Of a stretch of DNA of 34,083 bases, positions 7,340-34,083 are shown piece after piece. A program made the position numbers and the translations under genes. The DNA is from Cyanobacteria bacterium QS_8_64_29 (GTDB taxonomy: Bacteria; Cyanobacteriota; Cyanobacteriia; Cyanobacteriales; Rubidibacteraceae). The stretch covers positions 13,912-47,994 of the forward strand of contig PXQH01000005.1 in assembly GCA_003022125.1 (NCBI GenBank), given 5' to 3'. The notes under the pieces were generated by a model. That model did no database searches. It was not told the DNA's origin and saw only the letters and a list, made by a program, of their open reading frames with translations. The stretch's first letter is position 1. The number at the start of each line of letters is the position of its first letter.

Positions 7340-8239
7340 ATGGTCGATCTGGGGCTAAATTCAGCCGTTTTTCTAGGGCAAGTTAACACTGCCATCAACT
7401 CAGCCGGCATCTTGGGTATTGGGTTGGTGGTTGCCGGAGCGGGCCTCTACTTTTTGCGCTCGGTCCGCCCGACGCTATCGCGCGATCAAGACATTGTCTT
7501 TGCGGCCATCAGCCTGCTCTGCGGTCTCATTTTGATCTTTCAAGGCTGGCGGCTCGATCCCATCCTGCAATTCGGGCAGTTTTTGCTAACGGGGGTTGCG
7601 GTCGCCTTTGGCGTTGAGACCATCCGCCTGCGCAGCGCTACGACCGAGCAAGCCCGGCGCAATACCCCAATTGTGGATGACGACCGGCCGACCAGCCGCG
7701 TCTATCGCGCTGAGCTGGATGACGAGGAAGAGGAACTCGAGCCCCCAGAAGCTGACGACCCCGAGCCAATCGACCGCCGCTTGCGCGGCACGCGGGAGCC
7801 CCGCGAGCCCCGTTCCTCGGCGGCGCGACGCCAGCACGAGGCGCCCGAGTCCCGCTCGCCCCGTCCGCGGCGCGAGGCCAATCGCCGCCCAACGTCCTCC
7901 GAGCGCTCCCCCAAAGCATCCTCGCGCGCCAGTAGTCCGGCTGGTGGCAAGCGTGATAGGGAAGCCTTCGAGCGCGAACCGCGGACGGCAGCCCCCGACG
8001 AACGCGAACGCCCGCGGCGCAGCGAGCGCCTGTCCCGCTCGCAATCGCCAGCCGCTCGCCCCACGCCCCGCCCAACCGGCCGCGGAACTGCCTCCACCAG
8101 TAGCAAGCGAGCGGCTAGACCGGCGTCGCCCAGCCGCCGCTCGGCTCGGGAAGATTACGTCGACTACCGCCCAGTTGACAGTTCCGATGGGGACGATAGC
8201 CGCGATAGCGGCCTGGATTTAGGACCATCGGAATACTGA
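7340..8239 (+). CDS. ycf66: Ycf66 family membrane protein with long disordered tail
   Basis: The first ~110 residues form the conserved Ycf66 region. It has three hydrophobic segments (about residues 20-42, 52-70 and 76-92), with YFLRSVRPTLSRDQDIVFAA between the first two. Ycf66 is found in cyanobacteria and some plastids and has no settled function. From about residue 125 onward the protein turns into a low-complexity tail: first acidic (a DDEEEEL stretch), then ~150 residues rich in Arg, Ser, Pro and Ala, ending with an acidic SSDGDDSRD stretch. A GGAGGAG at 7320-7326 is the nearest Shine-Dalgarno-like sequence, rather far from the ATG. The stop lies 27 bases from that of the convergent Hlip gene. 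Confidence 0.85.
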   Translation: MVDLGLNSAVFLGQVNTAINSAGILGIGLVVAGAGLYFLRSVRPTLSRDQDIVFAAISLLCGLILIFQGWRLDPILQFGQFLLTGVAVAFGVETIRLRSATTEQARRNTPIVDDDRPTSRVYRAELDDEEEELEPPEADDPEPIDRRLRGTREPREPRSSAARRQHEAPESRSPRPRREANRRPTSSERSPKASSRASSPAGGKRDREAFEREPRTAAPDERERPRRSERLSRSQSPAARPTPRPTGRGTASTSSKRAARPASPSRRSAREDYVDYRPVDSSDGDDSRDSGLDLGPSEY

Positions 8240-8266
8240 GTAGAGCGAGCTGGCAAGTGGGGTGCG

Positions 8267-8497
8267 CTAGCGCAGCTCGAGCCACGCCAGCAAGCCTTGG
8301 CCGGTTGCGAGTTCGATGGCCAGCAGGGCAACAAACCCCAGCATGGCAAAGCGCCCGTTGATCCGCTCGGCATAGCGGGTCCATCCCCAGGCTGGCTCTT
8401 CTAGGTGGGGAATCAGCTCCCTAGCATCATCGGCTGACTGTTGTTGGGCTGCCCCTTCGGTGGCTTCCGTCTCGGCTTGGTTATCGGATGGTGTCAT
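8267..8497 (-). CDS. High light-inducible chlorophyll a/b-binding-like protein (Hlip/Scp)
   Basis: Hlips are single-helix members of the light-harvesting superfamily. They bind chlorophyll and carotenoid, quench excess energy and protect chlorophyll during photosystem II assembly. The 76-residue protein has a polar N-terminal half and then the signature [20 protein letters not shown] (about residues 44-63), with the chlorophyll-ligating Glu, Asn and Arg of the ExxNGRxAM motif. It ends with [11 protein letters not shown]. It is longer at the N terminus than the smallest HliA/B proteins, closer to HliC/ScpE-type or fused forms; I do not assign a number. Upstream lies a 348-base gap shared with the cyAbrB gene. 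Confidence 0.92.
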
Positions 8498-8546
8498 AAC
8501 GGATGGGAACGGGGGTGTCCGAGCTTTCCCAAGCTAGCATCGAGTG

Positions 8547-8650
8547 ATACCAATTTGAGCAGCGGATGCACGCTTGCTAAAGCGCATGATTCCCATATTG
8601 AGGGAATTTCGGAGATCGCAATCTAGTGCACAAGCCACGAGAATTGGTAT
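8547..8650. mobile_element. MITE-like inverted-repeat element (about 104 bp)
   Basis: Perfect 9-base terminal inverted repeats, ATACCAATT at 8547-8555 and AATTGGTAT at 8642-8650, enclose the element. On each side, 11 bases inside the repeat, the sequence TGCAC occurs in the same inward orientation (8567-8571, and its complement at 8626-8630). A central hairpin ATTCCC/GGGAAT with a 7-base loop (8589-8607) sits almost exactly at the midpoint. There is no coding capacity. If TA is the target duplication, the element proper runs from CCAATT to AATTGG. A non-autonomous transposon relic is the likeliest reading, not proven. Confidence 0.55.
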
Positions 8651-8756
8651 GAGCCTATCGCGATGGCGCTTGGCAACCCAGCGGTCGGGTGATGTGGCGC
8701 AAACCCGGTAAGTAGCGTTGCTTTTAAAGGGAGAGATAGTAGTTGTCGGACGGTTA

Positions 8757-8796
8757 TTGTTAAATGGGTCGCATCAAACGATATATTTTTTATAGA
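8757..8796 (+). promoter_or_regulatory. Possible cyAbrB promoter region
   Basis: TTGTTA at 8757-8762 is followed by an AT-rich run with overlapping -10-like hexamers (GATATA at 8780, TATATT at 8782, TATAGA at 8791). This is the most AT-rich tract in the region and lies 50-90 bases before the ATG, implying a leader of about 45 bases. Inferred from sequence only. Confidence 0.4.
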
Positions 8797-8845
8797 ACGA
8801 TGGTTCCCATAAGGGGCAACGACAGCGTTATTAGGACGAACCAAC

Positions 8846-9250
8846 ATGAGCCCAACCGATACAACACCCTTGACTGGAAAACAACTACTGCAGAGAGTCC
8901 AAGAACTCTCCCATCTGCCGCGGCGGGAAACGGCCAAAGCCTGCGGCTATTACAAGGTGGAGCGAGACGGCAGCGAGCGCGCCAATCTGACCGAGTTTTA
9001 TAATGCGCTGCTAGCTGCAAAAGGCGTTCCGGTGAGCCCGGAGGGTAGCGGCGACGGGCGCGGCCGGGAACCCACGTATCGCGTCAGCGTTCACAAAAAC
9101 GGCCAAATCGTCATTGGATCCACCTATACCGAGGCCATGGGCCTCCAGCCTGGCGACGAATTTGAAGTCAAGCTGGGGTCGAAAAACATTCGGCTCAGGC
9201 GCCTCGGTCAAGACAATGAAGACGGTGCCGACGACTCGGTCGAGGCTTAA
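8846..9250 (+). CDS. Cyanobacterial AbrB-like transcriptional regulator (cyAbrB)
   Basis: cyAbrB proteins are abundant DNA-binding regulators of cyanobacteria that act on carbon and nitrogen metabolism, hydrogenase and other genes. The 134-residue product has the typical order. The conserved N-terminal part includes LTGKQLLQRVQELSHLPRRE and CGYY. Then comes NLTEFYNALLAAKGVPVSPEG. The AbrB-type DNA-binding segment near the C terminus includes GREPTYRVSVHKNGQIVIG and GLQPGDEFEVKLG. Unlike Bacillus AbrB, the DNA-binding domain is C-terminal, the known cyAbrB arrangement. Cyanobacteria usually carry two paralogues and I cannot tell which this is. It ends 14 bases from the convergent cbiET gene. 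Confidence 0.93.
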   Translation: MSPTDTTPLTGKQLLQRVQELSHLPRRETAKACGYYKVERDGSERANLTEFYNALLAAKGVPVSPEGSGDGRGREPTYRVSVHKNGQIVIGSTYTEAMGLQPGDEFEVKLGSKNIRLRRLGQDNEDGADDSVEA

Positions 9251-33984: not shown

Positions 33985-34083
33985 ATACCAATTACTAATA
34001 ATATTGCACTGTTTTGGCGGCGCGGACCGCTTGCCGGATGAACTTCCAATTGGTGAGCGAGCGGATGGTCTACTCCGAGAGCT
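33985..34083. mobile_element. Terminus of a repeat/IS-like element (continues past window)
   Basis: The junction with the broken dehydrogenase begins ATACCAATT (33985-33993), and TGCAC follows 11 bases later (34005-34009). This is the same spaced pattern found at both ends of the element at 8547-8650. The first 25 bases are AT-rich, unlike the flanks. Beyond that the DNA is GC-rich. I see no recognisable transposase in the 74 remaining bases, so I cannot tell whether this is an insertion sequence, a longer MITE or the other side of a rearrangement. Confidence 0.5.

Follow-up and report, generated by a model that had tools for sequence, protein, structure and literature searches.

The intergenic region between a gene for a high-light-inducible-type protein (hlip) and a cyAbrB gene in Cyanobacteria bacterium QS_8_64_29 contains a short inverted repeat, which raises the question of what kind of element it is and how it came to be there. 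We studied it in a stretch of 34,083 nucleotides from contig PXQH01000005.1, hereafter the window. A sequence-only reading of the window had described 9-base inverted ends, a mirrored TGCAC 11 bases inside each end, and an ATTCCC/GGGAAT hairpin, and all of these are present at the positions described. On the plus strand, the left end contains block 1, ATACCAATT (8547-8555), an 11-base spacer (8556-8566), and block 2, TGCAC (8567-8571). On the minus strand, the right end contains block 2 at 8626-8630 (GTGCA as read), an 11-base spacer at 8631-8641, and block 1, again ATACCAATT, at 8642-8650 (AATTGGTAT as read). The central palindrome, ATTCCC-N7-GGGAAT, covers positions 8589-8607 (ATTCCC at 8589-8594, GGGAAT at 8602-8607), with its centre at 8598 as compared to an element midpoint of 8598.5. 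The first A of block 1 at either end belongs to a target-site duplication, TGA, that can be read directly at 8545-8547 and 8650-8652. Since the outermost A and T are part of the duplicated target, the element proper, TACCAATT...AATTGGTA, is located at 8548-8649 on the plus strand and is 102 bp long, or 104 bp including the outer A and T. The earlier placement at 8547-8650 was thus right in its location, but one base pair too wide on each side. The open reading frames that overlap this copy only run through it, and it is non-coding with terminal inverted repeats, as in a MITE. The window contains three matches to ATACCAATT-N11-TGCAC with up to two mismatches, as compared to an expectation of 0.10, and none of 100 shuffles reached three; the third match is located at 33985-34009.

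The search for further copies of the end pattern that the sequence-only reading had proposed gave 141 exact matches to ATACCAATT-N11-TGCAC in the genome (81+60, MITE and IS ends pooled) and none in the reversed control. With up to three mismatches, 79 left ends of the family were identified, some of which come from truncated copies, while the reversed control gave none. The assembly comprises 2.22 Mb in 69 contigs, which corresponds to roughly one family copy per 28 kb. A comparison of a 201-bp region against the genome gave at least 48 dispersed matches in both orientations (40 of 93 candidates were scored). Inverted ends, the lack of a gene, dispersed copies, and a target-site duplication identify the sequence at 8547-8650 as a MITE. 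Among 59 relatives, one (G001) has this MITE, in two copies at 74-75%.

Of the 70 MITE matches, 51 were complete copies with both ends and flanks and were used for the counts of the target-site duplication, while 19 partial or atypical matches were left out. The length is 104 bp in 46 of the 51. These 46 copies differ on average by 7.9% from the consensus (5.8% for the copy in the window) and include no identical pair, which suggests that the amplification took some time and was not a very recent burst. The blocks are the most conserved parts (0-3% differing), followed by the spacers (about 5%) and the interior (12.4%). In the order of the element, the deviations are 0.7% and 0% for the left blocks 1 and 2, 1.7% and 3.1% for the right blocks 2 and 1, and 5.1% and 5.3% for the left and right spacers. 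The spaced pattern had previously been read as selected rather than copied, on the grounds that the spacers differ between the two ends. The spacers do differ, but each is conserved among the copies of this MITE family, and they have therefore been copied too; other families have other spacers. Five MITE copies are located within about 850 bp on contig C58 (15707-16559, locus L009), and other clusters are present on contigs C40 (4263-6323) and C47 (2699-2935). One copy on contig C11 (777-912, L069) is 131 bp long, with about 27 bp extra near the hairpin containing GCGATCGC, which we take to resemble HIP1.

The flanks of the MITE have the form T-N-[ATACC...GGTAT]-N-A. There is a T at position -2 in 51/51 copies and an A at position +2 in 50/51, and the next base outward is a C or a G in 43/51 copies on each side. 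The two N positions carry the same base in 44 of the 51 complete copies, as compared to 13.2 expected, which means that the element is TACCAATT...AATTGGTA and that the duplicated target is TNA. The comparison of copies called for by the sequence-only reading thus gives a target-site duplication of 3 bp. The N positions are mismatched in 7/51 MITE copies, and likewise in 7/50 copies of the insertion sequences (ISs) described below.

The proposed alignment to empty sites gave the same answer. At three sites, the flanks joined with a single 3-bp copy align without any indel in the aligned stretch to uninterrupted homologues: a locus in strain HT-58-2 (L126) to Hydrococcus (L148) over 93 bases, a Nostoc locus (L160) to a Gloeocapsa plasmid gene (L195) over 138 bases, 15 of them left of the site, and a MITE copy in the genome under study (L021, contig C28) to a Westiellopsis gene (L159) over 119 bases. 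The identity is 69-78% for these three pairs and 69-90% for the homologues overall, so that they are homologues rather than near-identical loci, and no recent empty/filled pair was found among the homologues compared. The MITE at L021 splits a coding frame towards its C-terminal end; the frame continues after removal of the element in silico. In another Nostoc pair (L176 and L169) the junction agrees, but there is a 1-base gap 16 bases away, and repeats inside the loci L132 and L150 are also consistent with 3-bp empty sites. Two same-strand open reading frames of 585 and 765 amino acids in Nostoc sp. LPT look like one gene interrupted by the full IS copy between them (L178:212-5309); a plasmid search gave no match for the empty site.

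Six contigs of the assembly stop 94-199 bp inside an end of the type ATACCAATT-N11-TGCAC/T, with other spacers and with T-N-A flanks in 6/6. One of these ends is in the window (33985-34083), where the right end of a candidate helper IS is cut by the contig end and the minus strand encodes the C-terminus of an IS630-type transposase. This piece has an in-frame stop, and 99 bp of it recur without change at the end of contig C18. Translation of two contig-end pieces gave both termini of the transposase, the N-terminus beginning with MTTVFNVDIAES and the C-terminus ending with TNWKFIRQAVRAAKTVQYY. Searches with NF033545 and profiles gave no intact helper gene in the assembly and a single remnant, on contig C16. 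Over 35 residues, the N-terminus and the transposase in G001 are 77% identical. What the MITE and the IS of this genome have in common in sequence is limited to the 9+5 end bases, placed 11 bases apart, with unrelated spacers and interiors, so that mobilization by this IS is putative. The MITE is not simply the IS seen here with its interior deleted, as both spacers and interior differ.

The same two-block ends cap ISs of about 1.1 kb in other cyanobacteria, as would be expected for a MITE and its helper, and these are the full-length ISs with matching ends that had been looked for. Exact matches to the end pattern were found in 145/388 genomes of the order, including the source genome, and in 61/149 genera, while the reversed control gave two matches, one each in G085 and G117. 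The exact 11-base gap is thus found elsewhere in the order with spacers of unrelated sequence. When gaps of 6-16 bases were allowed, the gap was 11 in 75 of the 132 matches from other genomes, among the matches listed, many of which are related copies; the reversed control for this search gave at least eight matches, among those listed. Exact end signatures number 87 in G138 and 97 in G264, two other genomes of the order, and independent MITE expansions may be the reason.

An alignment scan of named genomes with the catalytic half of the transposase identified 238 relatives, of which the best 80 were kept. These best 80 of 238 are cyanobacterial by title, except one Gracilibacteria-labelled MAG. 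Both ends were found at full length and with up to two mismatches in 50/80 loci, and the N positions match in 43/50, as compared to 16.1 expected, with the 30 incomplete loci left out. Strain HT-58-2 contributes 13 of the best 80 loci, with matching flanks in 13/13 and all four bases at N. One of its copies has ATT on both sides instead of TNA, showing that three bases are duplicated and not one base within a fixed TA context. The set of 50 includes 12 HT-58-2 loci, and without these the N positions match in 31/38. Together with the 79 left ends and the target-site duplication, the IS630-type ISs with the same ends bear out the suggestion of a mobile element with two blocks bound by a transposase. 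The relatives of the helper are 1126-1165 bp long and usually contain two open reading frames, with a single frame of 352 amino acids in L151 only, consistent with the 1.0-1.4 kb and one to two open reading frames of IS630 elements. In L115-L194, orfA and orfB are usually split near an A-rich stretch (for example TTTAAAAAAAACTG in L111), which may hint at frameshifting or slippage. At L112:187-948 (contig C67 of G118), an element of 762 bp has the same two-block ends, is flanked by TAA, and contains an intact open reading frame of 160 amino acids and a transposase match of only about 24 residues. It looks like a cargo-bearing derivative, and the 160-aa product appears cupin-like by eye.

In L111, the HTH domains are located in orfA and the DDE_3 domain in orfB. 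The unsplit L151 transposase scored 210 bits against the IS630 model NF033545, which has a cut-off of 100. Of the split proteins, one orfB passed with 123 bits and another scored 99.1, while two orfA products scored 68 and 78. ISs of the IS5/IS1031 type also duplicate TNA. An IS5-family transposase was rejected, as IS630 was the best NCBIfam family and IS5 was not among the matches. An AF2 model of L151 was of middling quality (mean pLDDT 76.6, pTM 0.52), and its top Foldseek match was the Mos1 mariner transposase (E 9e-11), with low whole-chain TM-scores (0.34-0.38).

Very probably, the non-coding MITE of about 104 bp has been mobilized in trans by a transposase of the IS630/Tc1-mariner type, from a DD31E, TNA-duplicating lineage, while the measured DD34-37E IS630 groups duplicate TA. 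This reading builds on the copies, the ends, the duplication, the empty sites, and the same ends and duplication on transposase-bearing elements, all demonstrated at the level of sequence. At each end, the HTH domains would bind TGCAC (block 2) and TACCAATT (block 1), with the assignment of domain to block being presumptive, and the enzyme would cut at TACC...GGTA. The 3' ends would then be joined to a TNA target, mostly (C/G)TNA(G/C), with a 3-bp stagger that is the likely biochemical cause of the TNA duplication. For the mobilization in trans in this strain, we also considered that a different, unseen transposase moves the MITE and shares the 14 conserved end bases by chance. The unrelated interiors and spacers, and the lack of an intact helper in the assembly, would fit with this. 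However, the MITE and the IS share the genome, the blocks, the 11-base gap, and the TNA flanks, and in G001 one MITE copy directly adjoins a decayed IS of the same subfamily, which makes such a transposase improbable.

The lineage of the helper differs from what is expected of IS630 elements in two respects: the duplication is a 3-bp TNA rather than a 2-bp TA, and the D-E spacing is 31, as compared to the usual IS630 spacing near 34. Since its transposase fits the IS630 model and its duplication is not TA, we regard it as a variant of IS630 and not a standard member. Given that a TA is present inside each end (TACC...GGTA), and that the IS630 and Tc1-mariner elements covered by PMC2170065 duplicate TA, the duplication could instead be the canonical TA, with the matching outer N due to target preference or chance. 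We delimited eleven other multi-copy IS630 groups of cyanobacteria by copy alignment, eight of which have TA and three TNA (G017a, G045, and G064). The 3-bp flanks are identical in 11/11 distinct copies of the three TNA groups, as compared to 1/23 in the eight TA groups with the same processing, and the single match (copy L241 of G002) is taken as chance. These counts refer to distinct copies from the 34 of 40 fetched copies that could be located (L249, L251-L253, L273, and L274 were missed), and some groups are small, with one copy in G043 and two each in G054 and G017b. The N varies in G045 and is constant in the fetched copies of G017a (TCA, 4/4) and G064 (TAA, 3/3), while a further G017 copy (L212) has TTA on both sides. 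Along with the matching N in MITEs and ISs, the four values of N and the ATT copy in HT-58-2, and the empty sites, which have the three bases just once, this comparison speaks against the canonical TA duplication, which we reject for the helper lineage as very unlikely.

The TNA duplication goes together with the spacing of the catalytic residues. A D-E spacing of 31 was measured for all three TNA groups and for 13/14 rows with TACC ends (the decayed L048 gave no value), as compared to 34-37 for 7/8 TA groups (G017b gave no value), so that the spacing in the DD31E lineage is at least three residues shorter than in the measured TA groups. In an unrooted tree of 44 catalytic domains, a branch with support of 100/99 separates from the rest 25 rows, namely 23 with a measured DD31E and two, L048 and L234, that were assigned to it beforehand. 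The tree omits 8/52 DDE rows, of which L210, L211, L212, and L217 are near-copies and the others are L224, L225, L227, and L233; G017b, L223, and L230 yielded no domain for it. The D-E spacing is 43 in L225 and L227. The ends of single loci and of loci from outside the cyanobacteria were picked by inverted-repeat score rather than by comparison of copies. Among the single loci on the DD31E side, 4/9 have a matching TNA pair (L212, L214, L218, and L220), while L216, L221, L222, L226, and L234 have no matching pair or no clear ends. The 18 other single loci with candidate ends contain one 3-bp match, aag at L232 (DD37E).

From a wider sample of 15 records, fetched from 40 listed of 299, matching TNA pairs were identified at 6/10 DD31E or DD32E loci outside the cyanobacteria: in Thermus thermophilus TF28, T. 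brockianus, Azospirillum (ISAzs14), A. argentinense, ISAli3, and Sinorhizobium sojae. For the latter, the spacing of 31 was counted by hand from DQAGWH, while the automatic count, which took an early D, gave 41. The TNA pair of Euhalothece comes from the second-ranked candidate for the ends. The DD31E/DD32E loci in Caballeronia and Photobacterium have no matching TNA pair, and Skermanella and a cut Salinibacter locus gave no candidate ends. No matching TNA pair was found in ISTth6 (37 by hand count), Methylocystis (DD36E), or Halococcus (DD34E, no candidate ends), and a passage in PMC6352166 gives ISTth6 with a 2-bp repeat. We lean towards the view that the DD31E/TNA elements make up a branch of their own within the IS630-Tc1-mariner group, spread over a number of bacterial phyla and combining a shortened D-E loop with a strand-transfer stagger of 3 bp, and that the cyanobacterial MITEs and cargo derivatives, one apparently with a cupin gene, are its passengers. 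If so, the size of the stagger would be predictable from the catalytic domain.

ISAzs14 and ISAli3 are similar to the helper in that they are annotated as IS630-like, have DD31E and DD32E, respectively, and are flanked by TTA...TTA. They differ in being alphaproteobacterial and in having ends that begin with TACCAG, and they probably belong to the same lineage. Both names follow the ISfinder style, and the 3-bp repeats of the lineage may thus already be on record with the curators. In the CC-licensed PMC literature (ISfinder being outside this scope), we found no report of the rule, that is, of an IS630 element with TNA duplication or DD31E, among the matches listed, and the end motif likewise gave nothing related by title.

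Among known systems, the MITE is closest in style to RUP, the repeat unit of pneumococcus, which is 107 bp long and linked to IS630-Spn1 (PMC2229807, in part). According to the same source, RUP is similar to the MITE in size, copy number, inverted ends in common with an IS630-family element, and proposed mobilization in trans, but it targets TA sites, whereas the MITE duplicates a 3-bp TNA and has a cyanobacterial host. Nezha, which we know from a title cited in PMC10969869 alone, is also a MITE of cyanobacteria. Similar to the helper, ISY100 and IS630, as described in a section of PMC2170065, have an IS630-family transposase with HTH and DDE domains. Ends of about 24 bp and cut-and-paste transposition are reported there for ISY100 and would be expected of the helper. 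However, ISY100 and IS630 duplicate TA and have a single transposase gene, while the helper has TNA, a spacing of 31, and usually orfA and orfB.

The MITE is ordinary by itself and of a known kind, and the DD31E/TNA rule is the interesting part. The lineage matters because a passage in PMC8533490 states that the entire IS630-Tc1-mariner group recognizes and duplicates TA, with Sailor, which has TATA, as a departure. Pogo Fot duplicates TAA (PMC7386202, in part). From these portions of the sources, Sailor (DD82E) and pogo Fot are, like the helper, members of the IS630-Tc1-mariner group whose D-E spacing has changed or whose duplication is not TA. They differ from it in spacing and duplication; Sailor is both prokaryotic and eukaryotic, and pogo is described as a superfamily of eukaryotes. 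The eukaryotic NuwaII (PHIS) has a C|TNA|G target and, most likely according to its authors, a 3-bp TNA duplication (PMC4482050, in part), similar to the MITE and the helper. Its transposase, however, as presented there, belongs to an unrelated superfamily on the PIF/Harbinger side, and we infer that the likeness is due to convergence. A bacterial branch with a TNA duplication and a shorter D-E spacing is a natural experiment on the way in which the stagger of a DDE transposase is set, and it also gives the correct boundaries for the annotation of such ISs and MITEs in the cyanobacterial genomes that contain the end pattern.

The genes on either side of the MITE are hlip (8267-8497, minus strand, domain match to Chloroa_b-bind) and cyAbrB (8846-9250, plus strand, domain match to AbrB-like), in agreement with the location given by the sequence-only reading. 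The element starts 50 bp before the start codon of hlip and ends 196 bp before that of cyAbrB. Five relatives (L200, L202, L203, L204, and L206) have a divergent hlip homologue no more than about 1 kb away from cyAbrB. No MITE was found within 1.5 kb of cyAbrB in any of the 11 relatives examined (12 were searched), and the insertion thus looks lineage-specific. Neither of the two observations that, according to the sequence-only reading, would speak against a mobile element was made, as the genome contains many copies and the 11 relatives examined have none near cyAbrB. A terminator or outward promoter inside the element was rejected, as no terminator-like site was found in it and the only promoter-like match (8763-8736) is located outside, and the region 8200-9000 gave no match to an RNA family in Rfam. 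That the element is a selected regulatory or RNA module rather than a transposon is barely credible: it is a palindrome between divergent promoters, its folding is somewhat more favourable than that of shuffles (z -2.0 to -3.7), and a few central pairs show double changes (44-60 T-A in 4/46 copies and 45-59 C-G in 2/46), but such pairs are often broken (48-56 C-A in 9/46; 44-60 unpaired, as C-A, C-T, or G-G, in 13/46), and the target-site duplications, the dispersed copies in both orientations, the copy within a coding frame, the absence near cyAbrB in 11 relatives, and the lack of an Rfam match or terminator-like site all argue against it. A second cyAbrB paralogue, at 60% identity, is located on a small contig of the same genome (C40:1423-1728), which also contains one of the MITE clusters.
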